Assembly (NCBI GenBank): GCA_945860265.1
Contig: CAMAQF010000006.1
Span: forward strand, 17,837 to 81,836
Direction: 5' to 3'
DNA: 64,000 nucleotides
DNA from: Emticicia agri
GTDB taxonomy: Bacteria > Bacteroidota > Bacteroidia > Cytophagales > Spirosomataceae
Positions 1 through 64,000 of this stretch are shown one piece after another. A program made the translations under genes and the position numbers. Numbering within the stretch: the stretch's first letter is position 1; each line of letters begins with the position of its first letter. The notes under the pieces are model-generated. The model was not told the DNA's origin. It saw nothing but the letters and a program-made list of their open reading frames with translations, and ran no database searches.

Positions 1-1084
1 CTACAAATCGAAGAAGAATAACAGGATTGAGGTAATTGATATCAAAACCTACTTGACGTTTTCCAAAAACAATACTTTCAAAGAGACCAATATTTAGATT
101 TCGACTAACATTAATGCTTAAATGATGCAATGAAAAGTATTTTGGTGGAAGTTGCTCGGTACCATCAACCGCCACCTGAATTTGTTTGTTTATCAGCTGG
201 GCAAATAAGTTCATGTATTGAAAACGCCCGATATTTGTCAGCACTTTTAGATGCAAATTTGGAGCAGAAAAATCAGACAAAATCATTGAACGAATACCCG
301 AACCAATGAAATTTTTGTCATGTCCAAACTGTATTTGTACACTTTTCAGGGCTTGAAATGTAATGTAACCTCTTGCCGAAAAGAAATCAGCTAAATACCT
401 GCTCGAATCAGCATCTGGGATTTTTGTAAAACCCTCATAGGGATTGGCTTTATACTGACGCCCATACTCTCTCACGTATTCAGGATAAAGCACCTGATTT
501 TCAGTAAACATCGAGTAGAAACCCATTTTTTTATTTAGTGTGCCACGTATTTCAATTCCACGCGTATTAATATAAGGCGTTTCTTTCGTTTGATTATCGT
601 TGGCAAATGAAAACTGGAATATCGGACTTACATGAATATCTAAGTCTTTGTTTTGAATACTATAAAAATCAGGTTTTTTTATGAAAAGGTGCTTCCATAT
701 TGCTTTTTTAGAATCACTTTGAGGAAGTTTGGCATCATCGAGCCACTCCCAGCTGTCGTTTTGTAGATATGCTAAATTGAAACGGTCGGTTTTTGTAAGT
801 TTGACTTTTTCTTCGGTTTCTAAATCGATAGATAGTTTTACCAAATCCTTTCTTCTTACTGGTTTTATGTTGGAATGAAGATTTAATAAACTGCCACTTT
901 TTATTTCGTATCTTTCGATTAAGTTTGAATAATCTTCGTTGAGTGGTGCAAAATTACTTTGAGCAAAACCGCTCAGTTGCCCTAAAAATAGAAGCAAAAC
1001 CAATAGACTGAATTCACAGAATCGGAGTGGGATATTTAGATAGCCGGCCGAAATATTAATGTATTTTATCAAACACAATCTCAT
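1..1084 (-). CDS. Capsule assembly Wzi / gliding RemB-like outer-membrane protein, partial (C-terminus outside window)
   Basis: Minus-strand open frame from ATG at 1084 to window edge; signal peptide then ...NKKMGFYSMFTENQVLYPEYVREYGRQYK...IQFGHDKNFIGSGIRSMILSDFSAP..., typical Wzi/RemB barrel text. Confidence 0.7.
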   Translation of the reverse strand, partial: MRLCLIKYINISAGYLNIPLRFCEFSLLVLLLFLGQLSGFAQSNFAPLNEDYSNLIERYEIKSGSLLNLHSNIKPVRRKDLVKLSIDLETEEKVKLTKTDRFNLAYLQNDSWEWLDDAKLPQSDSKKAIWKHLFIKKPDFYSIQNKDLDIHVSPIFQFSFANDNQTKETPYINTRGIEIRGTLNKKMGFYSMFTENQVLYPEYVREYGRQYKANPYEGFTKIPDADSSRYLADFFSARGYITFQALKSVQIQFGHDKNFIGSGIRSMILSDFSAPNLHLKVLTNIGRFQYMNLFAQLINKQIQVAVDGTEQLPPKYFSLHHLSINVSRNLNIGLFESIVFGKRQVGFDINYLNPVILLRFV

Positions 1085-11074: not shown

Positions 11075-12130
11075 AATTATTCTTGTAAAATATTAAAAAT
11101 TTCAAATGTTTTTTAGGATTACTGTTCATTTGTATTCGAATGACCAGATTTAGTACCTACTTTTACCTCAATTTTGGAAACAATTTATTAGGCAAAGATT
11201 AATTGTAATTATCGTCCTTCAATTTTTTCTTATAAAACTACATTTTTTATTATTTTTTCAGCAAGCTCATTTCCCCAATTCATAATTTTCCCCAATTCAA
11301 ATTTTTTTTATTTTTTCTTTTAACAAAAGCTGCATGAAGAATTCCTTTTAAATGTATACAAATTTTCAAACTATTTTCATCATTCGCAAGTTCTCTGTGT
11401 CAAAATTTTGAAAGTTCTGCTTTGTAAATGCTTTTTTAAAAACATCGTCTGCCATAATTGTTGAAATTGTTTCAAAGTCCTCTCAATGTTTGGTGAAATA
11501 AAGCTATTTGTCCAAACGAGTTTTTAATTCATTTTTTGTCTGCTTGAAATCTGGCCTTTAAAGTTAAATAAAAGTTAGTTTCTAGAAAAAAACACGCTAT
11601 TTTGGTTTTTAAGTATTATGTAATGTTCCGCTTTATTTTTTATACGTTAATTTTCGTAATCGTCAAAAGTAAAATCTTAAATTCCGATGTAATAAACAGA
11701 TTTTAAATTGCAGATCCATTCTACTTTTTATCCCTTTTTACGAATTAACCGTTCAATCAAGACCTTTTGTACGAGACCAAGATGGAATTAGACCGTCAAA
11801 CTCAAACATCTAAAAATTACCTTAAAACTATAAATTCATTTACTTCATTCAAATCATAAAATTTTGCGGATGAATGTCTTTAGGTAAATAATCATTTAAT
11901 AAATTCAATTTATCACTTACTGGTTTTTTTTGCTCGTTTTTTATTTTTTGGTCAGGCAGCGTTTCGCTAGGCTACGTCCAATTTAATGCTTTGTTCTTAA
12001 TCATGGTGTTCTTAGATTAGCCCAATTTGCAGAGGCCAAGCCCCCTCGGGTCTCGTGCCGAAGAACCGAAGGGAACGAGAGCCAGAGTATTTGAAGATTT
12101 TTCTGGACTTAAATGGTGTTTTACCATCAA

Positions 12131-13133: not shown

Positions 13134-13910
13134 TTATTTTTTCAATCTATCTCTCAAAGCTTCTGCTAATGGTGCTGCAGATGCAGGGCTTTGACCTGTC
13201 ATTAATGCTCCATCTACTACTACATTTGGTGCCCAGTTGGTTACACTTTTGTAATTAGCTCCTCTTCTTTTTAGTTCTTGTTCTAATGAAAACAATAAAT
13301 GACGGTCTAATTCTATTTCTGCATCTTCAGAATCTTTAAATCCCGTAAGATTTAAACCCTCTACTAAATATTTTCCATTAGTTAATTTTACGTCTCTCAA
13401 AATGGCGGGTGCATGACAAACCATTGCTATTGGGCGACTTGATTCAAAATAATCACGGATTAATTTGATTAAATATTGGTCTGATGCCAAATCTGTTAGC
13501 AATCCGTAACCACCTGGTATAAATACTGCATCAAATGAGTTATAATCTACATTTCTTAATTTTCTTGTATGTTTTGCGGCAAATAAAGCTACAGGGTCTT
13601 TCAGAAACTTATCAGTGTATTGCGTAGTGAAAGGTATTTTCATACTGAATAAATCCACAGGAGCGTCTCCTCCGTTTGGTGAAGCTAATACTACCTCATA
13701 TCCTGCCTCGGTTAAGATATAATATGGTGCTGCCAATTCCGTAAACCAAGTTCCTGTTTGTTTACCACTTATACCCATATCATCATAAGATGTCATTACG
13801 AGTAATACTCTTTTTTGTTTGTTTATTTTATAAGAGGTATTTTGTGCATTGGCCAAAAAACCAATGGTTACTAATAAAGCTAATGCTACTGTTTTTAATA
13901 AATTTTTCAT
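13134..13910 (-). CDS. Type 1 glutamine amidotransferase domain (DJ-1/PfpI) protein, exported
   Basis: FDAVFIPGGYGLLTDL, IAMVCHAPAIL, VVVDGALMTGQSPASA. Confidence 0.9.
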   Translation of the reverse strand: MKNLLKTVALALLVTIGFLANAQNTSYKINKQKRVLLVMTSYDDMGISGKQTGTWFTELAAPYYILTEAGYEVVLASPNGGDAPVDLFSMKIPFTTQYTDKFLKDPVALFAAKHTRKLRNVDYNSFDAVFIPGGYGLLTDLASDQYLIKLIRDYFESSRPIAMVCHAPAILRDVKLTNGKYLVEGLNLTGFKDSEDAEIELDRHLLFSLEQELKRRGANYKSVTNWAPNVVVDGALMTGQSPASAAPLAEALRDRLKK

Positions 13911-49599: not shown

Positions 49600-50075
49600 T
49601 CATTTAGAACCATCTTTAAAATCATCTTTTTTCAATGTATTGCATTTATATCTTGTTCCAAAAGCCTCTTCCATTCTGAGCCAAGTGGACTTCTCGAACA
49701 CCCATAAAGCATTATTTACAGATAAACCCAAATAATAATCTGCCGAATCTAATTTGCCCAGCTTTAAATACGAAATACCTATCCAAAAAGGATAACTATG
49801 ATCCATTGTTAGGTCGATTGGTCGTTTTTGATGGATAGCTTTTAAGTCTATTATTTTATTGGCGTAGTCTTTCATAAAAATACACTTCATAAACCCACGA
49901 TAGCCTAAATATCCAAGAGTATAGTATTCAACCGCTTTATTCAAAAACCTCATACCATCATAATATTTACCACTTTTGAAGTTCGGCATAGATTTTTGTT
50001 GACATAAACGTGTATTTTTTGGCTCTATTACTAAGGCTGAATCTAAGTACATTTGCCATTCAGCCGAATTATAAC
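49600..50075 (-). pseudogene. Truncated copy of the 58.7-59.5 kb TPR-like protein
   Basis: SYNSAEWQMYLDSALVIEPKNTRLCQQKSMPNFKSGKYYDGMRFLNKAVE matches 58705-59526; start and end are foreign. Confidence 0.85.
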
Positions 50076-50289
50076 TGCAGGATTCAAGTAACAAATGCAA
50101 CTTTATCAGCAGGCGAAAGTTGCTTAACAGCCTCAGCTAACTGCTGAAAAATGAAATTGAAATTTATACTATACACAACATTTATTTTTTATAAATCTAA
50201 TAAAAAACTAAGCACCAAAACAAAAATATTGAGAAAATAAATATCCTTTACTAACTACCAAAAACATGATGCAATAAATAGGAATGCCT

Positions 50290-50522
50290 GCCAGGTGCGA
50301 ACCTAACTGCCCACACCAATTACATTGCGGATGGTAGCAAAGCATTATGGGCGATGGTTTTCAATACAAAAGTTAAGTGAGGCAACACAAAAATGCAAAG
50401 AAGGGGTTTTTATTAGGTGCGAAAGGCAAGTTATCAGTGAGGCTGCCGAGAGTATTGGTTTTAAGATTTTAGCAGTAAAAGTACCTTTTAAGCAATTAGA
50501 AAAAGATGTACTGAAAGTCTAA
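50290..50522 (+). pseudogene. C39-peptidase domain fragment of a second bacteriocin ABC transporter
   Basis: LRMVAKHYGRWFSIQKLSEATQKCKEG...ISEAAESIGFKILAVKVPFKQLEKDV*. Confidence 0.75.
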
Positions 50523-51000: not shown

Positions 51001-51231
51001 AAGGCATTTCGACCGAACTAAACCAAGCAAAAATCGGTAATACTTAAAAGGTTTTATTTGACAGAAAAGAAGGCGGTTATTTTATTGGAAGAACAGAATT
51101 TGACTCGCCAGAAGTTGATAATGAGGTACTTGTACCAGCTTCTCAGTACGTAAGAATGGGAGATTTTGCCAATGTAAAAATCAATAATGCTGAAGAATTT
51201 GATTTGTATAGCGATTTGGTTTGATTTAGTG
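51001..51231 (+). pseudogene. rimO 3' fragment, inverted relative to rimO at 16770
   Basis: GISTELNQAKIGNT*KVLFDRKEGGYFIGRTEFDSPEVDNEVLVPASQYVRMGDFANVKINNAEEFDLYSDLV* plus 9 nt of shared 3' flank. Confidence 0.93.
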
Positions 51232-52656
51232 CTGAACAAAAATCTTTCTGATTTGGTAAAATAATCTCTCAATTAATCTTAAATCTTCTGTAATAATTTC
51301 AGCAGAAGCAGTCATGCCTATTTTATAAGAAAGTTGTTTATTGAAGTTGGTTTTTAAGCCATTAGTCAATTTTACAGTAGCAATAAAAGCAGATGGCTGC
51401 CCCGTTGTATTATCCAAAGAGGGTAATTGAGCGATAGTGGCTATTTTTCCTTCTACTGCACCAAATTCTTCAAAAGGATATCCTTGAAATTTTACTAAAA
51501 TTTTTTGTCCTATTTTGACTTTACCAAAGTTAGTTTGTGGTATGCGTATTTCACCAAAAAATTCTTGATTTTGTGTGCCAACATATATTATTTCTGTACC
51601 GATATTTAGTATTTGTTTTTCTTGCAAAAGTCCCGAAAAATAGATGCTTCCATCGGTTGGGCTAATCAACAAATAGCGATTTTTCCAAGATTCTATTGCA
51701 CTCCGTAGCGTATTAAGATTTTGTTGAAAACTACCTTTTTGCTGTAAAGTAGTATTATCTAAGTCTAAAATTTGTGTTTTTTTTGTGTTTTTCAACGAAT
51801 TGTTGTTGATAATTGCATTTTCAATGTTTTTAAGCGGCAACTTTTTAGCCAACAGTTTACTTTCTTCACGATAAAACTCTAAGGGTGCAATTACTTTTTG
51901 ACTGAATAGTTTTTGATTCATTTGAAACTCTTTTTCGGCCAATTCCATATCTCTTTGATATATTTTGTATTGCTCTTCTAATTTACGATTTGTCCTTTCC
52001 AATTCTGTAATGTCAATTTCTAATAAATTGCGTCTTTTTTGATAAAACTTATCAGAAAAAAGTGTCGTAATTTGAACATAAACACCCTGAAAGTTTTGGA
52101 ATTGATTTTGTACTTCTCCAAGATTTTTAAATCCGTTTAAATCCACATTCCCGATTTGATTATATGCTTGCTTTTGAAGTAAATCATCTATTTCTATTAA
52201 TCGCTCTTCCAAAGCTAAAATCTCATCTGGTTTAGCAGTGCTTTCAATATAACCTAAAATCTCTCCTTTTTTTACTTTTTGGTTTTCTTTAACAGATAAT
52301 TCTTCAAGTCGTCCATCAACTTTTGCAATAATTGGTTTTGGTATATTTGCAGAAGTCAAACGAAACTCAGTATTTACAACCGTTGGATAATGTACAAACC
52401 AACTAATCGAAAATGCGGCAAACAGCACAAAGGATATAACCAACATTCCCCAACGAATTATCCATGAGGGGATTTCTTCTAAAAAATCTCTTACGGCTTC
52501 GGTTTGTATGTTTGAAGCATCGTTATCGTTTCTATTATACGAAAGTGCATAATCATCTTCATCATTAGGCATAGGAGTTTTGCCACCGAGTAAATCGGCG
52601 AGATTACTTTTCAGTAAAGCATTATTGACGATTATATTTCCTGAATCTTCAGACAT
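51226..52656 (-). CDS. HlyD-family membrane fusion protein (bacteriocin secretion)
   Basis: N-terminal TM, DGRLEELSVKENQKVKKGEILGYIES, coiled coil, SYKIGMTASAEIITEDLRLIERLF. Confidence 0.92.
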   Translation of the reverse strand: MSEDSGNIIVNNALLKSNLADLLGGKTPMPNDEDDYALSYNRNDNDASNIQTEAVRDFLEEIPSWIIRWGMLVISFVLFAAFSISWFVHYPTVVNTEFRLTSANIPKPIIAKVDGRLEELSVKENQKVKKGEILGYIESTAKPDEILALEERLIEIDDLLQKQAYNQIGNVDLNGFKNLGEVQNQFQNFQGVYVQITTLFSDKFYQKRRNLLEIDITELERTNRKLEEQYKIYQRDMELAEKEFQMNQKLFSQKVIAPLEFYREESKLLAKKLPLKNIENAIINNNSLKNTKKTQILDLDNTTLQQKGSFQQNLNTLRSAIESWKNRYLLISPTDGSIYFSGLLQEKQILNIGTEIIYVGTQNQEFFGEIRIPQTNFGKVKIGQKILVKFQGYPFEEFGAVEGKIATIAQLPSLDNTTGQPSAFIATVKLTNGLKTNFNKQLSYKIGMTASAEIITEDLRLIERLFYQIRKIFVQH

Positions 52657-52684: not shown

Positions 52685-54904
52685 TTAATTTCCTAATTCT
52701 AATTGATTTTTGACCAACGAATAATAATATCCTTGTTTGGTAACTAATTCACTATGTGTACCACTTTCAACGATTTCTCCTTTATTCAAGACAATAATTT
52801 GGTCAGCGTTTTTTACCGTACTTAACCGATGTGCTACCACTACGACGGTTCTTCGACCCGTCGAACCGCCTTTAAAAAAATCATCTAAATTTCGCATAAT
52901 AACAGCCTCATTATTAGCATCTAAAGCCGATGTTGCTTCATCAAAAAATAAAAATTCAGGGTTTTTATAAACCGCTCGTGCTATCAAAATACGTTGTTTT
53001 TGTCCGCCACTAATACCCATTCCACTTGAACCGATACGAGTATTCAAACCGCTCGGCAAAGCCTCTACGAATTCGATTATATTAGCTGTATGCAAGGCAT
53101 TTTCGAGTTTTTGACGATTTATTGAGCCATTTACATCTGATTCACTCACATTTCGAGCGATAGAATCGGCAAAAATATAACCTTCTTGCATTACTACGCC
53201 ACATTGACTACGCCAAAAATTATAGCTCATATTTTTGAGATTTGTATTGCCGACATAGATATTCCCATTTTGGGATTCATAATATTTAAGCAATAATTTT
53301 AATAGGGTTGTTTTGCCGCTACCACTTGCCCCAACTATTGCTGTAACTTTTCCTTGAGGAATTGTTAAGCTAATGTTTTTTAAAACCAATGCAGATGCAC
53401 TACTTCCATAACGAAAATCAATGTTTTCTAAGTGAATTGATTTATTGCTTGGTAGTTCGGCAATTAATAAATCATCTTTATTTTCTTCGTTGGTTTTATT
53501 ATGAATTTCAGATAAACGCTCAATACTCAATTTGGCATCTTGGTAGCTACGAATAAAAATGATAAAATTATTGATAGGCACATTCATTTGCCCAATTATA
53601 TACTGCACCGAAAGCATTGCTCCCAAAGTAATTTCGCCATTGATAACCGACCTTGCAGCAATATAGCTTATAAAAATATTTTTGACTTGATTAATGAAAT
53701 TTCCGCCTTCGTTTTGGGTTTGTGATAAGGCCAAACTACGAATATTTAATTTAAACAAACGTGCTTGAATCGCTTCCCACTCCCAGCGGCGGCGTTTTTC
53801 CGAACCATTCAATTTAATTTCCTGCATTCCGTTGATAAGCTGAATCGTACTACTTTGATTGCCCGATGCTTGGTCGAAATACAAATAATCAATTTTGGCT
53901 CGGCTGCTCAGAAATAATAACACCCAAGCCATATACAATGCAGAACCGACAAGAAAAACCCAAAACAGCAGTGGATTATAATAAAACAGAATTGCACCAA
54001 AAATGATCAAAGTAAAAGAAGAAAATAGTACATCTAAGGTTGTGGCAGATAAAAATGCTTGCACACGGTCGTGGTCACGAATACGTTGCAGAATATCGCC
54101 AGTAGTTTTGGAATCAAAAAACGCAATGGGCAGATTCATTAATTTCATCAAGAAATCTGACAACATTCGGAGGTTTACTCGGCTGGTGGTATGCAACAAA
54201 ATCCAAGAACGAATAATACCGATGCTTGATTGCGAAATAAAAAGCACTAATTGAGCAATCAGAATTAAGGAAACAAAGTCAATATTGCGAGTATTAATAC
54301 CAGTATCTACGATTTGTTGCGTAAGAAAAGGCAATGCCAACTGCAACATACTTGTTACAAAAAGCCCAATAAATAGTTGCGTAATATAACCTTTATATGG
54401 TCTGAAATAACGAAAAATAAAACCTGTTAAAGATTTTTTGACACCTTTTTGCTCCTTTTGTTCATAAAATAAAGGCGTAGGCTCAAACAATAGCAATACC
54501 CCCTCTGATTCAGAGCTTGGTTTCTTTTCTGGAATCCAACCTTTGATAAAATCTGCTTTTGTGTAAGTGATTAAACCATGTGCAGGGTCACCGATTATCA
54601 ACTTTTCTTTGTTAGCTTCATAAACAACTACATAATGGCGTTGTCGCCAATAGGCAATGCAAGGCAAAGGAATCTGTTCGGATAAAGTTTCATAAGTAAC
54701 ATTGAGAGCCAAAGAACTAAAACCTATTTTTTCTGCCGCATCAGCAAGGCCTCCGAGGGTTGTCCCATCTCCTGTTTGACTTGCTATTTCTCGCAAATAA
54801 TCTCCATCGTAAGATTTACCATGAAACTTACTAATCATACGTAAGCACGTAGGACCGCAGTCTTTTTGGTCATATTGGCGATAAAATGGGTATTTTTTAC
54901 TCAC
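52685..54904 (-). CDS. C39-peptidase-containing ABC transporter (bacteriocin/GG-leader exporter)
   Basis: YDQKDCGPTCLRMISKFHGK; GASGSGKTTLLKLLLKYY; ISGGQKQRILIARA. Confidence 0.96.
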   Translation of the reverse strand: MSKKYPFYRQYDQKDCGPTCLRMISKFHGKSYDGDYLREIASQTGDGTTLGGLADAAEKIGFSSLALNVTYETLSEQIPLPCIAYWRQRHYVVVYEANKEKLIIGDPAHGLITYTKADFIKGWIPEKKPSSESEGVLLLFEPTPLFYEQKEQKGVKKSLTGFIFRYFRPYKGYITQLFIGLFVTSMLQLALPFLTQQIVDTGINTRNIDFVSLILIAQLVLFISQSSIGIIRSWILLHTTSRVNLRMLSDFLMKLMNLPIAFFDSKTTGDILQRIRDHDRVQAFLSATTLDVLFSSFTLIIFGAILFYYNPLLFWVFLVGSALYMAWVLLFLSSRAKIDYLYFDQASGNQSSTIQLINGMQEIKLNGSEKRRRWEWEAIQARLFKLNIRSLALSQTQNEGGNFINQVKNIFISYIAARSVINGEITLGAMLSVQYIIGQMNVPINNFIIFIRSYQDAKLSIERLSEIHNKTNEENKDDLLIAELPSNKSIHLENIDFRYGSSASALVLKNISLTIPQGKVTAIVGASGSGKTTLLKLLLKYYESQNGNIYVGNTNLKNMSYNFWRSQCGVVMQEGYIFADSIARNVSESDVNGSINRQKLENALHTANIIEFVEALPSGLNTRIGSSGMGISGGQKQRILIARAVYKNPEFLFFDEATSALDANNEAVIMRNLDDFFKGGSTGRRTVVVVAHRLSTVKNADQIIVLNKGEIVESGTHSELVTKQGYYYSLVKNQLELGN

Positions 54905-54940: not shown

Positions 54941-56104
54941 TTATTTTTCGTTGTTTATGAGTTCCCAAACTTTATCATTATAATTTGCTTTTGTGAATCC
55001 TGTCAGTTTTTCAAGCGATTTATAGTAATTCTCGTTGCCTTTTTCATAGGGTCCACAATTCAAGAATTCCCAAACACCATCGAAACCTTTTTCTTTTTCT
55101 ATTTTTTGGACGATTAACGCATTGACAACATAATCTACCATTAAATGCTTCTCTTGACTTTCTCCAAAATTTACTGGTTTGTCTTTGAAGTCTGCCCATT
55201 TTGCGTTTTTATCAGTAGCAACTTTTTCTTTAAATTGTTTAAAAATATCTTGCCAACTTATGCCCCAACTTCCACCATACAAATAGGCACAAGCCTCATC
55301 GATTGATTTATTTACTTTTCGTCTTGAAATAACCAAACTTAATCTATCATGCCATAAATCATGCGGGTCAAATTCATTGAAATTGGCACTATTGCTTCCT
55401 AAAACGATGAGTTTTTTATCGCCTACGGTTGAACTCAAATTGTTTTGAGGATAACCATTATAGTCTATTTTATAATCAACACCTATTAATTTTTGTAAGG
55501 CAACAAAATCTGAACATAAATAAAACTCACTTAATTTATTGACAGATTTTAGTTTTTTATCAAATTTTGTTGCCAATTTGTCAAACTCTTGTAATTTTTC
55601 TTTGTTGATAGAGTTTTGAAAACGAAAAATGTTATTACCAACTTTTTCAGTTTTCCAGTATTTTGTATTGCGAACCAACGGAGAAGAAAATAAAAAAGAA
55701 TTGTTTGTTTTATGAGCAATAAATTCAAAACTCCCTGCTAAAATTGGTGTTTTTTCATTGACACCGATGTACGAAACTTTGATTAAATACTTGCCATCTT
55801 CAATAGCTATGACATTTGTTAAGTAAGGTTTATAAAAGAAGTCATCTTTAAATCTACCGCTTTTCTCAATCCCATTTACTTCGTCAAGCTGAATAAACGT
55901 TTCTATTTTTTCTGCTGGAAAAACCAATATATTTTCTTCGTTTGGTTTTTGAGCTAAAATCAAAAATTCGTTGAGTGATGAAATGAGTTGTTTGCTTATT
56001 GTGCTATCTTGGGGTAAATAAATATTAGGACTTACTATCAATCGGCTTGTTTGAGCATAGACTACCGAACTTATTAGTAAAAACAAAAAGAGTAATTTTT
56101 TCAT
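54941..56104 (-). CDS. Exported gluzincin-like protein, module A (HDLWH in place of HExxH)
   Basis: Signal peptide; EFDPHDLWHDRLSLVISRRKVNKSIDEACAYLYGGSWG parallels HELIH...DEGIATFLGG of 62139-63260. Confidence 0.7.
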   Translation of the reverse strand: MKKLLFLFLLISSVVYAQTSRLIVSPNIYLPQDSTISKQLISSLNEFLILAQKPNEENILVFPAEKIETFIQLDEVNGIEKSGRFKDDFFYKPYLTNVIAIEDGKYLIKVSYIGVNEKTPILAGSFEFIAHKTNNSFLFSSPLVRNTKYWKTEKVGNNIFRFQNSINKEKLQEFDKLATKFDKKLKSVNKLSEFYLCSDFVALQKLIGVDYKIDYNGYPQNNLSSTVGDKKLIVLGSNSANFNEFDPHDLWHDRLSLVISRRKVNKSIDEACAYLYGGSWGISWQDIFKQFKEKVATDKNAKWADFKDKPVNFGESQEKHLMVDYVVNALIVQKIEKEKGFDGVWEFLNCGPYEKGNENYYKSLEKLTGFTKANYNDKVWELINNEK

Positions 56105-57267
56105 ACAAAAAGGGGTTTTTGAATTGGATTTAAGATTTGAAATAAGTTGTATTGAAAAGTATATGGTTGATTACTGTAATCGAATGAGGCTAATTCTTTG
56201 CCATATTCTTGAAATATTGTACTGAATCCTTCTGAAAACTGTTTATGATAAGCTAAACCTTCATCTGTCAAAATTTCAGTATTATTCATCAATTGAAGGT
56301 CTGAGTAAAATTTGCCCATATAAAAACCCATTCTTCCGAGTGCTTCGTGGCATTGTGTTTCATCAAATAAATTACCAGATTTTATCACTTTATCCAAAGA
56401 GTGTAAAATAGTTGTATAAGTAAATAAGCCATGAAAAGCCCCATAAACCCCTCTACTTTCTTGTGGATTTGGCGTGAAACCACTTAGAGGAGAATCTTTG
56501 GCTACTTTCAAAAACTTATTGGTTTCAAGCGTAAGTACATTAAAAATGATATGCCCGCATTGGTGGGCAATATCATCTATGAAAAAGACAACTGATTTCT
56601 GCTTGTTTTCGATATTAAAGTAGGCTGTACCTTGTTGCATAATACCAGCAAAGGAGTTATGATTGGGACTACTGAAAACGACAAATTCACGAGTAAAATC
56701 TTCAATCAGCTTCCAAAAATCAGGTAAATTGTTTTGAAAAAATATGGTAGCTTCTGCTAATTGTGTTTGGTGTTTAGCCAAAGATTGTTCAACGGATTCA
56801 TCAAATATTACGCCATCTTGATAGCTCAAATGGTCGGTTGGGTGCAAACAAACACGAATATTGCTATTTTTGACGAATTGATTGGGGATAAGTTTCTGAG
56901 TAATTTCTTCATCAGAAAGTGTAAAAACTTCATAAGGATTTGCTCGAATATAGCCTAAATTTGGAAGATTAACCAAACCAAATAAATCAGCTTTGAGTGT
57001 TACTTCTGATGGGCGTTTTTCTTCTATAATATACCCAAGTAGCGTTTGTTCCAAAGAAATTTTGTTTTCTGAACCAATATCAGAAAGAAAATAACAGAAA
57101 CAGTTGGGTTCTAAAAATAGTGTATCATTTTCATAATCTAACAAATCAAAAAGTTGCTCGTTTTCTTGGTATATCGCCATTCGGATTGTGTCTGAAAGAG
57201 TTGCTTGATTGTTAAAAATCAAAGACTTATTGAGATTAAGTTTTAAAACAATTATCATTTTGTCCAA
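56101..57267 (-). CDS. Alpha-KG/HExxH-type peptide-modifying-enzyme-like protein, module A (HQCGH)
   Basis: VVFFIDDIAHQCGHIIFNVLTLE...ESRGVYGAFHGLFTYTTILHSLDK. Confidence 0.65.
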   Translation of the reverse strand: MDKMIIVLKLNLNKSLIFNNQATLSDTIRMAIYQENEQLFDLLDYENDTLFLEPNCFCYFLSDIGSENKISLEQTLLGYIIEEKRPSEVTLKADLFGLVNLPNLGYIRANPYEVFTLSDEEITQKLIPNQFVKNSNIRVCLHPTDHLSYQDGVIFDESVEQSLAKHQTQLAEATIFFQNNLPDFWKLIEDFTREFVVFSSPNHNSFAGIMQQGTAYFNIENKQKSVVFFIDDIAHQCGHIIFNVLTLETNKFLKVAKDSPLSGFTPNPQESRGVYGAFHGLFTYTTILHSLDKVIKSGNLFDETQCHEALGRMGFYMGKFYSDLQLMNNTEILTDEGLAYHKQFSEGFSTIFQEYGKELASFDYSNQPYTFQYNLFQILNPIQKPLFV

Positions 57268-57989
57268 GTAGAAACGATTAGCAGAATTAAATTGTATATT
57301 GAATGAAATAAAATAGAAAAAAAGATGTTATATTTTAATCTTACATATCCAAAGAATACACCTGTTATGATTTGAGGTAATAATAAAAATGGAATATAAT
57401 ATAGCATTTTAAGATTTAGGATATAGTTAAAGTTACTAAGATGAGGTAAAGCAAAAAATAGAACTGAAATATAAAATATCAATCTTGGTTTCATAGTCCA
57501 AAACAATAATAATTTATTTTTCTGATTATGAAACAGCGTTAACCCAATAAATACAGCCCCTCCTGAAAATAATGCGAATGCTATATTAAATATTAAATGG
57601 TCTTCTACTTCATACATTGAAGATTTTGTAAAATAACAACTAATATAATAAACCAAAAGTGTTATTACGATAGAGATATTAATAACTGAAAATTTTAATC
57701 CTAATCGATGTAATAATTCTTCAAAAGTAGGACTTAATACACATAACAAAATCACTTTATAGACAACATCCTTATTTTTGAGACTTAAAGTTAATAAGTT
57801 TGTTGGCTTTGTAATGTTAAAATAGTAAAAGAAAAAGAAGCTTACTATTATAGCAAATAAACTAAATAAGAATAATACAACAAGTAATAAAATACTTTTT
57901 TTTACTGTATCAAAACTATATTTCTTGTAATCTTTTTTTACAATACCGCTATTCAATAAATAAAAAAACTCCTTTAAAATGTTTATCAT
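57255..57989 (-). CDS. CPBP-family intramembrane protease, module A
   Basis: SPTFEELLHRLGLKFS (EExxxR), FALPHLSNF, FGYVRLKYNIFFSILFHSIYNLI; start MINILKEF chosen over ORF start 58136. Confidence 0.85.
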   Translation of the reverse strand: MINILKEFFYLLNSGIVKKDYKKYSFDTVKKSILLLVVLFLFSLFAIIVSFFFFYYFNITKPTNLLTLSLKNKDVVYKVILLCVLSPTFEELLHRLGLKFSVINISIVITLLVYYISCYFTKSSMYEVEDHLIFNIAFALFSGGAVFIGLTLFHNQKNKLLLFWTMKPRLIFYISVLFFALPHLSNFNYILNLKMLYYIPFLLLPQIITGVFFGYVRLKYNIFFSILFHSIYNLILLIVSTWTK

Positions 57990-58250
57990 TGTAATTCTTT
58001 TATGCAATAAGAATAAAACAGTTATGGATTTTTTTCGCTTTTTAACAAACTTAAAAACGAATGAGACTTGGCTAAAATCATGTTTAATTGAAAAAATATC
58101 TATTAGCCCATAAGCAAAAAACTTCCTGTAAATCACTTATAATAAACATTTTATAAAAAACTAAATTTGCCTAATGAATGTCTAATATCTATGCATATCA
58201 TGATAGTTTTTAGAATACATAAGAAATAGTATTTCATTTTGAATATCTAA

Positions 58251-58285
58251 AATTTGTTGAACCATTATTTTTAGTCCAACAAATT
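58251..58285. promoter_or_regulatory. Hairpin between precursor A and downstream genes (weak terminator/attenuator candidate)
   Basis: AATTTGTTG...CAACAAATT, 9-bp perfect stem. Confidence 0.45.
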
Positions 58286-58298
58286 TTTTAAATTATTA

Positions 58299-58541
58299 TC
58301 ATTTACTAGTATACGAACCATAAGAATCATTCGCATATGTTGAATGTGTGAAAGCGTGTTTTACTTCCGACCAAAAATGACACCAATCAAAATCTCCACC
58401 ACTAATGTTTTCTAAATTTTGAGTTACTTGCTCTGCTTTCTGAGCCTTCAACTCTTCTAATGATAGTCTTTTCATTGTTTTTGTACCGAAAGGATTTATA
58501 GCCACAGCACCGTTGCTGTTGTTTGTTTTTCGGTGCTGCAA
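58299..58541 (-). CDS. GG-leader precursor peptide A
   Basis: GAVAINPFGTKTMKRLSLEELKAQKAEQVTQNLENISGG / DFDWCHFWSEVKHAFTHSTYANDSYGSYTSK; alternative start ATG 58475. Confidence 0.85.
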   Translation of the reverse strand: MQHRKTNNSNGAVAINPFGTKTMKRLSLEELKAQKAEQVTQNLENISGGDFDWCHFWSEVKHAFTHSTYANDSYGSYTSK

Positions 58542-58655
58542 TTTGGGCTACTTTTGCAAATTTAGCACGATTATATGATAGATATATTATAATTATTTCA
58601 ATATATTTTATAATTATTACTTATAAAATACTTATATTTACCGTATAATAATTTT
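58420..58655 (-). repeat. Direct repeat (leader plus promoter), copy A; partner 63440-63665
   Basis: Near-identical text from the leader through about 120 nt upstream of the start codon. Confidence 0.85.
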
Positions 58656-58704
58656 AAAGGGGTTTAAGAAGAAATCTAATACAAATAAAATCTTCGCTTT
58701 TTCA

Positions 58705-59526
58705 TCAAAGTTTTTCTAAAATTTCATCAACTTCAAAAGTAGTAATCTGATAAGGATAATTGGCATAAGATTCATTATCTTCATTCATTCGATAGCCATT
58801 TGCTATATTTGCTTTTGCTTGAACTAATAATGCTTTTGCTTCTTCTTTTTGGTTTATTTGTAGTAAAACCATTGCTTTATAGTACTCAACATCTGGAAAA
58901 TGTGAGTTTTGAGCCATAGCATTTTCAAAGTATGATAAGGCCTCTTTATATTTTTTTTGCTTGAATTTTGTCAGTCCCCAATAAAACCAATCCACATAAT
59001 GGACTGCTTCTTTGCCTTTTAGTAAAGCATTATTGATAGATAAACCTAAATAATAATCTGCCGAATCTAATTTATTTAACTTTAAATACGAAATACCTAT
59101 CCAAAAAGGATAACTATGGTCCATTGTTTGGTCGATTGGGCGTTTTTTATATATAGCTTTCAAATCTATGATTGCATTGCCATAATCTTTCATAAAAACG
59201 CACTTCATAAAACCACGATAGCCTAAATATGCCAGTGTATCTAACTCAACTGCTTTATTCAGAAACCTCATACCATCATAATATTTGCCACTTTTGAAGT
59301 TAGGCATTGATTTCTGTTGCCATAAACGTGTATTTTTAGGCTCTATTGCTAAGGCTGAATCTAAGTACATTTGCCATTCAGCCGAATTGTAGCTGAATGT
59401 ATGCCAATATTCTTTTGTAATGTATTTTTCTTTTTTTGCTTTCAAAATACTATCATTTTGAGCAAAAGAAGAAAATATCATCAACAAGAGTGTACAACTA
59501 AGGCACAATTTCTGTAACTTTTCCAT
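58705..59526 (-). CDS. TPR-like secreted protein
   Basis: Start MEKLQKLCLSC; repeated WYWGLTKFKQKKYKEALSYFENAMAQNSHFPD-type units. Confidence 0.75.
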   Translation of the reverse strand: MEKLQKLCLSCTLLLMIFSSFAQNDSILKAKKEKYITKEYWHTFSYNSAEWQMYLDSALAIEPKNTRLWQQKSMPNFKSGKYYDGMRFLNKAVELDTLAYLGYRGFMKCVFMKDYGNAIIDLKAIYKKRPIDQTMDHSYPFWIGISYLKLNKLDSADYYLGLSINNALLKGKEAVHYVDWFYWGLTKFKQKKYKEALSYFENAMAQNSHFPDVEYYKAMVLLQINQKEEAKALLVQAKANIANGYRMNEDNESYANYPYQITTFEVDEILEKL

Positions 59527-59932
59527 ACTCAATTTTGAAAGTAAAGTAGGTATAGTAATCAAATTTTCGACTTTCATAAGTTCCTATTTTCCAGTTTTCT
59601 AAGGTTTTGACAAAAGTTAATAAAGCTTCAATATATTTTTCTTCAAAGTTTATTTGTTTGTAACTATTATCAATTTGATAGATTTCAAAATTCCCTGTTT
59701 GCCCTTTACAGTTCACCACGAAACGAATTGTAATAAAGCCATTCATTTGCTTTGGTTGATAAGTCAATGTTCGATTTACTTCCTCTGTTAGTTTTTCGGA
59801 AGAAAGAGGATATTTTGTATTAAAAGAATAATATTGAGGTTTCCATTTATCAGTAAAAGCATTATCACACAACTTGAAGGACTCTTGCTGTGCAATACTA
59901 ATTATTGGAAAGAGAAAAAAGATAAGTTTCAT
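59498..59932 (-). CDS. TonB C-terminal-like secreted protein
   Basis: PKQMNGFITIRFVVNCKGQTGNFEIYQIDNSYK, lacks an N-terminal TM anchor domain. Confidence 0.6.
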   Translation of the reverse strand: MKLIFFLFPIISIAQQESFKLCDNAFTDKWKPQYYSFNTKYPLSSEKLTEEVNRTLTYQPKQMNGFITIRFVVNCKGQTGNFEIYQIDNSYKQINFEEKYIEALLTFVKTLENWKIGTYESRKFDYYTYFTFKIEYGKVTEIVP

Positions 59933-60669
59933 TTTATATAATCTAAAAATGCAGGTATAAATGCCACCATATTTAACAAAGAATGCGATAGAACAGAATA
60001 AAAAATACCATATTTCAATCTTATGTAACCAAATACAATTCCATAGATGGTTTGTGGTAATGTTATCAATGGCATAAGTAGCAACGTTTTGAAGTTGAGT
60101 TCAAAATTAAAATAATGAAATACTCCAAATAAAAAGACTGAAAAATAAAAAACTTGTTTGCGATGATTTGACCAAAAATCAGTCAAAAAACTGTCTGTTT
60201 TTTGTGAAAATGTGAGAATAAATAAGGTAACTATTCCGAAAAGTAAAGCAATTAATATATTAGTAAAATAACTATTCATTGATTTGAAATACTCCGAAAT
60301 AGAAAAATGAATTATTATCAAGAAAAAATAACTTAAACAAGATGTCATTATTGAAAAATTAATTCGAGAATATTTTAATCCTAATCTAAATCCTAATTCT
60401 TCAATTAGCGGAATATAAAATATGTAAGAAATAATACTGAATATAGCCCCATTTGATACAATAAACTCATTTGTACGATTAATTGGATATGGGATATTCA
60501 ATACTTTTAGAAGACAAACACTAACGATAATTGTAGTTACAGAAGTAATTAATGATAATAACAAAGTACAAACAATTTCATTAATTTTAACTTTTAATGA
60601 AATGTTACTTTTTTCAACATACCCTTTTGAAAATAATATTTTTATATTTTGAACATAGACTCCTATCAT
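59929..60669 (-). CDS. CPBP-family intramembrane protease, module B
   Basis: IPLIEELGFRLGLKYSR, FGVFHYFNF, FGYIRLKYGIFYSVLSHSLLNMV. Confidence 0.85.
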   Translation of the reverse strand: MIGVYVQNIKILFSKGYVEKSNISLKVKINEIVCTLLLSLITSVTTIIVSVCLLKVLNIPYPINRTNEFIVSNGAIFSIISYIFYIPLIEELGFRLGLKYSRINFSIMTSCLSYFFLIIIHFSISEYFKSMNSYFTNILIALLFGIVTLFILTFSQKTDSFLTDFWSNHRKQVFYFSVFLFGVFHYFNFELNFKTLLLMPLITLPQTIYGIVFGYIRLKYGIFYSVLSHSLLNMVAFIPAFLDYIK

Positions 60670-60721
60670 AAACTTAATTGAGAAATTGTTAAAAAAGTCT
60701 TACAAAATATTAATGTTTATT

Positions 60722-60949
60722 CTAAAAGGTTCTGCATCTGAGTGGGTACTCATGCGTCAGTTCAGGAGTAGCATAATGCCCCATGTTATGAATAGTTCCG
60801 TTGGCGGTTACTAAAATTCCCGATGAACTTTTACCCAAAGCATTTTGTGCTTTTTGTAGAATGCCCAAAGCTTTCTGATAATTAACGTTGGTTTGGGCAA
60901 TACCTGCTGTAAAAGACAAGAAAAAGAATAGTGATAAGAAAAATTTCAT
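60722..60949 (-). CDS. Short exported protein, probably a truncated N-terminal gene fragment
   Basis: Signal peptide then QKALGILQKAQNALGKSSSGILVTANGTIHNMGHYATPELTHEYPLRCRTF*. Confidence 0.45.
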   Translation of the reverse strand: MKFFLSLFFFLSFTAGIAQTNVNYQKALGILQKAQNALGKSSSGILVTANGTIHNMGHYATPELTHEYPLRCRTF

Positions 60950-60955
60950 GTTATT

Positions 60956-62122
60956 TTATTTGAGAGGGTTTATTGCTTGAAATAGTTTGTAGTTAAATAA
61001 ATATGGTTGGTTTTTGTAATCCAACGAGAATAATAATGACCTGTATTTTTTTTTGATTTTCTTGTATCCACTCAAAAACATTTCATAAAACTCAAATCCT
61101 TGGTTTGTTAAGATTCGCTTATCGTTCATATGTTCCAAATCTTTCTGGAATTTGTCCATATAGAAACCTAATCTACCGATTGCTTCATGCTTTTCATTTT
61201 CATGAAAAATGCTATTATCTAAACATTTATCCAAAGAGTGTAAAATGGTAGTGTAGGTAAATAGCCCATGAAAAGCACCATAGACTGTTCTGCTCTCTCC
61301 ATCAATATAAGTAAATTCTTTAAGCGGTGATTCTTTATGAACTTTTAGAAAGTTTTCAACTTTTAAGGTTAAAGCATGGTATATTACATGACCACACTGA
61401 TGGGCAATATCATCCACGAAAAACAATTTTTTTCTCGTTTCGTTAGCTACATTAATAAAGCCTACTCCATAATAAGAAAGTGCCGCCATTGAGTATTGAG
61501 TTTCACTATTAAAAACAACCAACTCTCGGCATGTTGTTTTTAATAATCTAAGAAAATCTGGCGTTACATTTTGAAAAATACTTGCCGTATTATCAATGAT
61601 TCTCTGGTACTTTATTGCAGTATCTTGCACAGTTTCAACAAAAGTTGTCTCAAACCGTTGAGTTATTAAGTCTGTTGGGTGTAAACACAACCTTATTTTA
61701 GTTGATTCAACATAAATGTTAGGAATAATTGGCATGGTTCCGCTCTTTGTAATAGCCTCTTTATCTTTTATTTTATACAAAATTCCCTGAGAATTAGGTT
61801 CTATTTTTAGGTAACCGATATTTGGAAGATTAACCATTCCAAATTTATCTGATTCAATAATTATTTGTTCGGGTTTTGACTCACCGCTTATATAACCATA
61901 AACAGCTAGTTCTAATGAAACTTTATTTTTATAGTTTTTATTTCCGCTGAAATAATGGAATAGAGTTGGTTCTAAAAAGATATTATCGTCATCATAAATT
62001 AATTTCTGAAAAAGGGATGGGTTTTCTTTATAGAAAGCTAAACGAATCATATCTGACAATTCTTGTTGGTTTTGAACAACCAAATTTTCATCAATCAAGA
62101 AATCTAAAACGTGTATCATCAT
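60956..62122 (-). CDS. Alpha-KG/HExxH-type peptide-modifying-enzyme-like protein, module B (HQCGH)
   Basis: LFFVDDIAHQCGHVIYHALTLK...ESRTVYGAFHGLFTYTTILHSLDK. Confidence 0.65.
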   Translation of the reverse strand: MMIHVLDFLIDENLVVQNQQELSDMIRLAFYKENPSLFQKLIYDDDNIFLEPTLFHYFSGNKNYKNKVSLELAVYGYISGESKPEQIIIESDKFGMVNLPNIGYLKIEPNSQGILYKIKDKEAITKSGTMPIIPNIYVESTKIRLCLHPTDLITQRFETTFVETVQDTAIKYQRIIDNTASIFQNVTPDFLRLLKTTCRELVVFNSETQYSMAALSYYGVGFINVANETRKKLFFVDDIAHQCGHVIYHALTLKVENFLKVHKESPLKEFTYIDGESRTVYGAFHGLFTYTTILHSLDKCLDNSIFHENEKHEAIGRLGFYMDKFQKDLEHMNDKRILTNQGFEFYEMFLSGYKKIKKKYRSLLFSLDYKNQPYLFNYKLFQAINPLK

Positions 62123-62138
62123 TTGGATTAGTATTACT

Positions 62139-63260
62139 TTATTTGTAAAAACTTAATTCTTTTTTTATGTAATCATTCATATTTTCTTTTTTCACTAAGA
62201 GTAATTTTTCAATTATTCTGTAAATATACTCGTCTTCTTGTCCTGAATTAAGTACTTTATCAATTCCTAAAATCCCATGCTTTTCATAAATTTTTTTACA
62301 TAATAACCCCGCAATTGCATAATCAACATTCGTAGTTTTTTTAATTGGTGTATGATTTTGTAAGTCTAAAAGATTCTGAAAGTCTATTGACTGACTCTTG
62401 ATTTCGGCGTTCAGATTCGACAAATGCCATTCAAGAGGTTTGCCCAAACTACCGCCAAGAAAAGTGGCTATTCCCTCATCCCAAAAGGAATGATATTTTT
62501 TTAAATACTTTTGTGATGTATATAAATGTATCAATTCATGTGGATATGAAAACCTTTTATTTCCTGCAAAAATTCTTTTATTATGAACATCCGTTATAGA
62601 GGCATCTTCATTTCTATCAAAAAAGGTTAAATGATAATCAAACCCTCTAATTTCTTGAATCTCTTTAAAGTTATTACACACATAATAATCAAAATTGTTT
62701 AATTGTATCCCAAACCAAATATTGAAAGATTCAATTTTTTGTCTCATTTCCAATATTTCTAATGTGTCAACTTGTATATTTGGGGCAGATATGTAGTGAA
62801 TTTTATCAATTGTTTTTTTATTCCATTTTAATGTATTCGCCCTCAATGAAGATAATATTTTGAATTGCTTACTATGTTCATCTTTTTCTAAGTAGAAATT
62901 GTATATGCCAGTAAATTCAGATTTAATACTCATAAACGCAACTTTTACTCGCGTCAAACCCTCAAACTCATCAATAAAAATAAGTGTTGGTTTATAATAA
63001 AAATAATCTTGATAGTATTCGCTGTTTTGCAATGATACTATTTCGATATCAATAAAGTTATTAACTGTATCTTTTGAACTCCAATTTTGTTTCCAACTTT
63101 TATTTTGGATTTTATTATTGAAATAACTATCTATACATTTTATTACTTCTGTATAATCACTGTTATTTTTGTAAGGGGTATTCAAAGACAGTACACTATT
63201 CTCTTTTTGAGAAATACATTTGGTTGTGAAAAGACAAAATATTACTAAAAATTTGTTCAT
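62139..63260 (-). CDS. Exported gluzincin-like metallopeptidase, module B (intact HELIH...E)
   Basis: FSYPHELIHLYTSQKYLKKYHSFWDEGIATFLGGSLG. Confidence 0.75.
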   Translation of the reverse strand: MNKFLVIFCLFTTKCISQKENSVLSLNTPYKNNSDYTEVIKCIDSYFNNKIQNKSWKQNWSSKDTVNNFIDIEIVSLQNSEYYQDYFYYKPTLIFIDEFEGLTRVKVAFMSIKSEFTGIYNFYLEKDEHSKQFKILSSLRANTLKWNKKTIDKIHYISAPNIQVDTLEILEMRQKIESFNIWFGIQLNNFDYYVCNNFKEIQEIRGFDYHLTFFDRNEDASITDVHNKRIFAGNKRFSYPHELIHLYTSQKYLKKYHSFWDEGIATFLGGSLGKPLEWHLSNLNAEIKSQSIDFQNLLDLQNHTPIKKTTNVDYAIAGLLCKKIYEKHGILGIDKVLNSGQEDEYIYRIIEKLLLVKKENMNDYIKKELSFYK

Positions 63261-63277
63261 AATTAAAAAAATTAAAA

Positions 63278-63303
63278 GTCGCTGAGTTAAATTACTCAGC
63301 GAC
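63278..63303 (-). terminator. Hairpin between precursor B and downstream genes
   Basis: GTCGCTGAGT...ACTCAGCGAC 10-bp perfect stem followed by a T-rich tract on the minus strand. Confidence 0.75.
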
Positions 63304-63313
63304 CCATAAAGTT

Positions 63314-63544
63314 TTACTGCTTACTAAACTTTGTCCTAGTCGCGTCGGAAGGCATAACTGTACTTGGCTTACCATAACCATTATGACAATATTCTTCTGT
63401 TCCGCCTTTGATTGCTTCCAAGTTCATAATTTGACTTGTTGAATTTGCCTTCAACTCTTCTAATGATAATCTTTTCATTGTTTTTGTACCGAAAGGATTT
63501 ATAGCCACAGCACCGTTGCTGTTGTTTGTTTTTCGGTGATGCAA
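63314..63544 (-). CDS. GG-leader precursor peptide B
   Basis: GAVAINPFGTKTMKRLSLEELKANSTSQIMNLEAIKGG / TEEYCHNGYGKPSTVMPSDATRTKFSKQ; alternative start ATG 63478. Confidence 0.85.
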   Translation of the reverse strand: MHHRKTNNSNGAVAINPFGTKTMKRLSLEELKANSTSQIMNLEAIKGGTEEYCHNGYGKPSTVMPSDATRTKFSKQ

Positions 63545-63665
63545 TTTGGGCTACTTTTGCAAATATAGCACGATTATATGCTGCTTATATTATAATTATT
63601 TCAATATATTTTATAATTATTACTTATAAAACACTTATATTTTACTTATAATAATTTTATTGAGG
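63440..63665 (-). repeat. Direct repeat (leader plus promoter), copy B
   Basis: See copy A at 58420-58655. Confidence 0.85.
63622..63650. promoter_or_regulatory. Three ACTTATA repeats spaced exactly 11 bp
   Basis: ACTTATA at 63622, 63633 and 63644; copy A has them at 58619 and 58630, with a degenerate third at 58641. Confidence 0.65.
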
Positions 63666-63727
63666 TTTGGTTGTAAATAAGAGAAAGATTTATAATCTTG
63701 CAAATCAAAATCTATGCTGTAACTTTT

Positions 63728-64000
63728 ATGAACAATCTTCTTGCTGATAATATACGAACCAAACGCCTCGAACGAGGCTATAAACAAGAAGTCTTAGCAT
63801 TCGAATGTAACATGACACAAGCCAATATTTCACATATCGAAAATAGAAAATCAAATCCCTCTGAAGAAGATATAGAAAAGATAGCTAAGGTTTTGGATAT
63901 AAGGCCCGAAGAACTTAAATATGGTGTAAAAGAAATAAAAATTGAACATCATAATCACCCAAATTCTACAAATCCAAATCAAATCAACAATGGCGTAGCA
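63728..64000 (+). CDS. XRE-family regulator, partial (runs off window)
   Basis: MNNLLADNIRTKRLERGYKQEVLAFECNMTQANISHIENRKSNPSEEDIEKIAKVLDI. Confidence 0.85.
   Translation, partial: MNNLLADNIRTKRLERGYKQEVLAFECNMTQANISHIENRKSNPSEEDIEKIAKVLDIRPEELKYGVKEIKIEHHNHPNSTNPNQINNGVA

Follow-up and report, generated by a model that had tools for sequence, protein, structure and literature searches.

The window analysed here is a stretch of 64,000 nucleotides from the Emticicia agri assembly GCA_945860265.1 (contig CAMAQF010000006.1), and towards its end it carries, on the reverse strand, two genes for 388-aa enzymes together with genes for two small precursor peptides, an exporter and several accessory proteins (Table 1). 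Both enzymes contain the motif DDIAHQCGH(I/V)I and the C-terminal block ESR(G/T)VYGAFHGLFTYTTILHSLDK, as a preliminary description of the sequence had stated. Zincins use the Glu of HExxH as general base, and the alpha-ketoglutarate-dependent HExxH (aKG-HExxH) oxygenases, which have a zincin-like fold, were recognised just recently. In this study, we report that HQxxH is the trait of a sister subfamily of these oxygenases, encoded beside precursors with a conserved Cys-His pair, and discuss the reaction that they may catalyse.

Conservation of Gln in the HQxxH motif

The two copies are 46% identical overall at the protein level and use different codons for the motif Gln (CAA in copy 2 and CAG in copy 1), so that the residue has been kept while the DNA diverged. 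Judging from the sequence, copy 2 probably starts at the ATG at 57258, giving 385 aa and an overlap with the upstream stop, and not at the TTG at 57267. As far as found, the genome holds just these two copies. When 223 genomes of the same taxonomic family were searched with a profile of both proteins, relatives turned up in 20, including Emticicia and Dyadobacter, and further relatives were present in the same order and class; beyond Bacteroidota, the searches covered other phyla through plasmids only.

The homologues compared (29, at loci given L numbers) comprised 24 aligned sequences and the enzymes of L030 and L101-L104, of which L030 was assigned by a weak protein match (7e-5) together with motif and context. 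Both motif His and the third His (in AFHG) were present in 29/29. Among the aligned sequences His235, His239, His279, Thr283 and Arg312 were invariant and Gln236 occurred in 23/24, the motif variants being HQCGH, HQCSH, HQCAH, HQTGH and HQFGH; the five added enzymes had HQCGH (L104), HQAGH (L030), HQGSH (L102), HQGAH (L103) and HEGSH (L101). Gln was thus found in 27/29 homologues and Glu in only two (L072 and L101), which are close relatives of each other, and a switch between the two residues takes a single nucleotide (GAA/CAA). The conservation of Gln is far beyond chance, and the earlier proposals that the shared HQCGH is not accidental and that Gln marks a functional subfamily were both borne out by this alignment.

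A tree was built from 30 domains, 25 of the HQ group (including one Glu sequence, L072) and five canonical HExxH proteins; its root and long branches are uncertain. A well supported branch had all Gln sequences on the same side. L072 was nested among them, with an HQCAH enzyme as its sister (98/99), and two changes therefore suffice. Copies 1 and 2 were placed in separate lineages, copy 2 being sister to an Emticicia enzyme with 77% identity, and a recent tandem duplication was therefore rejected.

The loss of the motif Glu and of one conserved Arg might suggest catalytically dead proteins that bind the precursor as chaperone, partner or immunity protein. We regard this as very unlikely, since the three His and Arg312 are kept without exception even in homologues with as little as 25-30% identity, the Gln is itself conserved with the Glu lineage nested in the Gln clade, and the clusters share no other modifying enzyme.

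Relation to the aKG-HExxH oxygenases

The preliminary description had linked both enzymes to the mod_HExxH family (NCBIfam TIGR04267 / IPR026337, curated cut-off 40 bits). By direct scoring the link did not stand for the window proteins, as copy 1 reached 11.2 bits (E 0.28) and copy 2 gave no match, and in both proteins HQxxH replaces HExxH, the defining motif of the family. Nine of the 24 relatives, neither window protein among them, did match TIGR04267 at E<=0.01 (best 5.7e-9), which lends the link weak support. No Pfam family was matched by either enzyme, neither the HQ enzymes nor profiles built from them found anything relevant in direct sequence searches of the PDB, and TIGR04267 gave no match at 1e-5 over 297 Bacteroidota genomes, in which the controls went unmatched too.

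The link was upheld by profile-profile comparison and by fold. A Pantoea plasmid protein with the motif HECGH, the annotation "HEXXH peptide modification protein" and a TIGR04267 score of 91.8 bits matched copy 2 at 6e-8, and the HQ profile aligned to the profile of the canonical group of this protein at E=2.9e-14, with HQCGH over HE[CS][GA]H (HECGH/HESAH) and AFHGLF over FHALF/YHAAF. The canonical profile in turn found ChlH at 2e-16 (HEHRH, DLRPPSGLLHAIF), and via this bridging plasmid family the three invariant His align with HEHRH and LLHAIF of ChlH. AlphaFold2 models, a check suggested beforehand, agreed as to the fold: in Foldseek searches of the PDB, only ChlH (8s5f) and SjiH (22ob) were matched below 0.001 (copy 2, 6e-11 and 3e-9; copy 1, 1e-8 and 2.5e-9, respectively; probability 1.00, TM 0.53-0.67), the next unrelated match having E of at least 0.1. 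Profile alignment and modelled fold together indicate that the window enzymes are a sister subfamily of the aKG-HExxH peptide oxygenases and not proteases; the term sister subfamily is used, and not members, because the motif and the family score were tested and both lie outside the family definition.

With the aKG-HExxH family (TIGR04267; ChlH, SjiH, PflC/PosC, BpmH/BipH, PesO) the group shares the predicted fold, the two motif His, D-x-R followed by x-H-(A/G)-x-(F/Y), and a neighbourhood of genes for ribosomally synthesised and post-translationally modified peptides (RiPPs). It differs in HQxxH, in scores far under 40 bits, in precursors with a Gly-Gly (GG) leader and a Cys-His motif that are exported by a C39 transporter, and in the C-terminal RxDxRPxxGxxHA block, of which the group retains [ED]xR and the His and lacks the first Arg and the Pro. 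The zincin metallopeptidases (HExxH) likewise have H-x-x-x-H on a helix, but in both window copies their catalytic Glu is Gln, and no protease fold was matched significantly.

Precursor peptides and gene clusters

The two window precursors have leaders that begin with MKRLSLEELKA and end in GG, followed by DFDW-CH in precursor A and TEEY-CH in precursor B; the preliminary description had pointed out neither the peptides nor their Cys-His motif. Such a leader (at 58299 and 63314) with a C39-ABC exporter in the same cluster is the combination that marks a GG-leader RiPP exported by a peptidase-containing ATP-binding transporter (PCAT). GG-X4-CH, which puts Cys-His at core positions 5-6, was found in 32/34 precursors (27 of the first 29 and five added later), and the remaining two, both from L071, end in DCHE. 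In the first 29 cores all other positions were poorly conserved (best 10/29, none above 40%); the core contained a single His in 16 and a single Cys in 12 of these. Leader searches gave matches confined to the HQ locus in 17 of 18 genomes and no match in the remaining one. In L104 (Bacteroidota) and L030 (Pseudorhodobacter, an alphaproteobacterium), small proteins without a GG leader are encoded ahead of the HQ enzyme; they match each other at 6e-14 and both contain ACH, so that two unrelated precursor types share Cys-His beside an HQ enzyme.

The window precursors resemble the Bacteroidota double-Gly RiPP precursors (TIGR04149) in the GG leader and C39 exporter, but they fall under the cut-off of that model (best E 0.089) and have the conserved Cys-His in the core, and in contrast to TIGR04149 systems no radical S-adenosylmethionine (SAM) gene was seen among the recurring cluster genes.

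Around the HQ enzyme, 19 loci showed a recurring set of GG-leader peptide, CPBP or zincin-like accessory protein, HQ enzyme, secreted protein of metallo-beta-lactamase (MBL) fold, PCAT and HlyD. Precursors were found in nearly all loci, with exceptions at contig ends, and the smallest sets (e.g. L044) held little beyond precursor, enzyme and PCAT. In the core set the HQ enzyme is the sole candidate modifier, and the PCAT is the predicted peptidase for the site behind GG and the predicted exporter. The cluster (precursor, enzyme, C39-ABC exporter, HlyD) appears to act on small secreted peptides by modifying a Cys-His pair.

Among the other genes of the window, the two accessory proteins with signal-like N-termini had no Pfam or NCBIfam match. 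The MBL-fold remnant corresponds to proteins of about 490 aa whose genes are flanked in relatives by those of the HQ enzyme and the PCAT, and which are whole in most relatives.

Table 1. Features of the HQxxH locus (window positions)
Feature	Position	Strand	Basis or remarks
HlyD-type adaptor	51226..52656	-	HlyD_3 1.8e-11
PCAT (peptidase C39 + ABC exporter)	52685..54904	-	Pfam Peptidase_C39 7.6e-33, ABC_membrane, ABC_tran; conserved beside HQ enzymes
Second accessory protein	54941..56104	-	Sequence; signal-like N-terminus, HDLWH for HExxH; overlaps end of enzyme copy 2
HQxxH enzyme copy 2	56101..57267	-	388-aa open reading frame from TTG; AlphaFold2 pLDDT 92.8; alignments
Third invariant His (AFHGLF), copy 2	56431..56433	-	Aligned with canonical xxHA(L/A/I)F His
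HQCGH motif, copy 2	56551..56565	-	CAC CAA TGC GGG CAT; Gln codon CAA 56562-56560
CPBP/Rce1-like intramembrane protein 2	57255..58136	-	PF02517 0.00046, NF052640 9e-10; between precursor A and enzyme copy 2; recurs in many relatives
Precursor A	58299..58475	-	Leader MKRLSLEELKA...NISGG, core DFDWCHFWSEVKH...; Cys codon 58382-58380, His codon 58379-58377
TPR-like protein (58705-59577) and 144-aa protein (59498-59932)	58705..59932	-	Recur with HQ clusters
CPBP/Rce1-like intramembrane protein 1	59929..60669	-	PF02517 6e-7, NF052640 2e-14
Remnant (75 aa) of secreted MBL-fold hydrolase	60722..60949	-	Matches N-terminus of ~490-aa MBL-fold proteins
HQxxH enzyme copy 1	60956..62122	-	388-aa open reading frame; AlphaFold2 pLDDT 92.1
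Third His codon, copy 1	61268-61270	-	
HQCGH motif, copy 1	61388..61402	-	CAT CAG TGT GGT CAT; Gln codon CAG 61399-61397
Accessory protein	62139..63260	-	Sequence; signal-like N-terminus, zincin-like HELIH; homologues beside HQ enzymes in L045, L048, L051-L053
Precursor B	63314..63478	-	Leader MKRLSLEELKA...AIKGG, core TEEYCHNGYGK...; Cys codon 63388-63386, His codon 63385-63383

Over 170 bases upstream of precursor genes A and B (58476-58645 and 63479-63648, reverse strand), 160 positions are identical, while the linked enzymes share just 46%; this region is perhaps a common promoter or 5' untranslated region derived from recent copying or conversion. Rfam gave no match in the upstream regions of the precursor genes. 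A strong terminator-like stem of 12 pairs (63276-63305, reverse strand) lies between precursor B and the next gene, and may keep precursor expression above enzyme expression. Genes for HTH/XRE-like regulators recur beside precursors, in the window at 63698-64000 (+) and in L042 at 533-805 (-), L046 at 11618-11884 (+) and L049 at 13376-13765 (+). Outside the cluster proper, the TPR-like protein has what looks like a degenerate copy at 49600-50100 (-), and similarity to a portion of a C39 peptidase domain is seen at 50325-50522 (+), which suggests further cluster debris. Enzyme or PCAT genes lie in two frames in some genomes (L046 9151-10291, L043 5919-8123 and L051 7178-9382), a possible sign of cluster decay.

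Putative oxidation of the Cys-His pair

The explanation that we consider likely overall is that enzymes of the HQxxH sister subfamily, guided by the leader, oxidise the Cys and His in positions 5 and 6 of the core. The leader would bring the peptide to the enzyme, where a mononuclear metal site, presumably of Fe, formed by the two His of HQxxH and probably the AFHG His, would oxidise the pair with alpha-ketoglutarate as the putative co-substrate; the C39 domain of the exporter would then cut after Gly-Gly and, with HlyD, the short modified peptide would be secreted. ChlH hydroxylates His and Asp (PMC12636437), and other aKG-HExxH members hydroxylate Gln, Phe and Pro (PMC12636437; PMC13060819). 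Beta-hydroxylation of the His is the single most likely reaction, at somewhat less than an even chance, and is favoured over a Cys-His C-S bond, a bolder reading of the exact chemistry that we hold to be unlikely; other oxidations take up the remaining likelihood.

Several points weigh against oxidation of Cys-His by an aKG-dependent enzyme. The first Arg and the Pro of the RxDxRP block are missing, and in L072/L073 the remaining Arg as well, so that the enzymes might bind aKG in a changed way or not at all. SjiH carries Gln at the position of the third His, so that this His need not be a ligand. Some cores carry additional Cys and His, and the pair could also be conserved for recognition of the leader, for a disulfide, or for binding of a metal by the product.

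A different use of the same site would be cleavage, with zincin proteases or oxidative backbone-cleaving enzymes trimming the precursor at Cys-His. In favour are the zincin-like fold of the family and PflC, a relative that cuts the peptide backbone oxidatively or, in the absence of the leader, hydrolytically (PMC12636437). Replacement of the general base Glu by Gln in 27/29 homologues, the C39 peptidase already present in the clusters, and the fact that a cut at positions 5-6 would lose most of the core or give a very short peptide make this the least probable of the readings considered. With Gln in place of the general base, hydrolysis should be disfavoured, and the similar argument of the preliminary description against protease chemistry is a reasonable one; under the preferred reading of Cys-His oxidation, the change from Glu to Gln probably removes the hydrolytic side activity seen in PflC and would leave oxidation alone.

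An independent line of support for the target came from three relatives (L071, L075 and L076), whose clusters contain a methyltransferase of the CARME type (carnosine His N-methyltransferase family). It is the only CARME gene in each of these genomes; none was present in eight other genomes tested, and none was found in the window genome. In L075 each core has one His, which is the motif His. The same methyltransferases also match the model of the OvoA C-terminal mercaptohistidine methyltransferase (best 4.5e-9, under the cut-off). Genes for CmoA-like proteins (carboxy-SAM synthase; TIGR00740 down to 2e-47, under the cut-off) adjoin CARME-like methyltransferases in L075 (5382-6065), L076 (11301-12008) and L101 (5628-6368), and such neighbours could carboxymethylate the RiPP.

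The methyltransferase matches bear on whether the enzymes are instead aKG-independent, thiol-dependent iron oxygenases, in which three-His Fe(II) would bind the substrate Cys thiolate and either oxidise the thiol or link Cys to His by a C-S bond, giving a thiohistidine in the manner of EgtB/OvoA. The three invariant His, which recall the three-His triad of EgtB (PMC13426267), a substrate motif in which Cys adjoins His, and the OvoA-C match of the methyltransferases make the group resemble the EgtB/OvoA sulfoxide synthases of ergothioneine and ovothiol biosynthesis. However, the predicted fold is that of the aKG-dependent ChlH and in the searches run was unrelated to EgtB/OvoA, the HQ enzymes would act on a ribosomal peptide, the similarity of the CARME and OvoA-C methyltransferase families means that the match indicates a preference for His only, and the window genome has no CARME gene; we therefore rate this alternative as rather unlikely. 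Slightly more doubtful is its specific form, in which the enzymes would join the adjacent Cys and His side chains of the peptide to an ovothiol-like thiohistidine, N-methylated in some lineages.

A search of the open literature found no paper on HQxxH in RiPPs, on the HQ subfamily or on the Cys-His precursor type, and no account of the role of the HExxH Glu in aKG-HExxH oxygenases. The cluster type is widespread and, apparently, undescribed. A natural subfamily with conserved Gln and a nested Glu lineage offers a ready test of the role of this Glu and of the split between hydrolysis and oxidation in the zincin-like fold. The subfamily also defines an apparently undescribed class of RiPPs with a precise predicted target, the conserved Cys-His pair, and joining of the Cys and His side chains, if true, would amount to a new class of RiPPs and to a reaction new to the ChlH-type fold.

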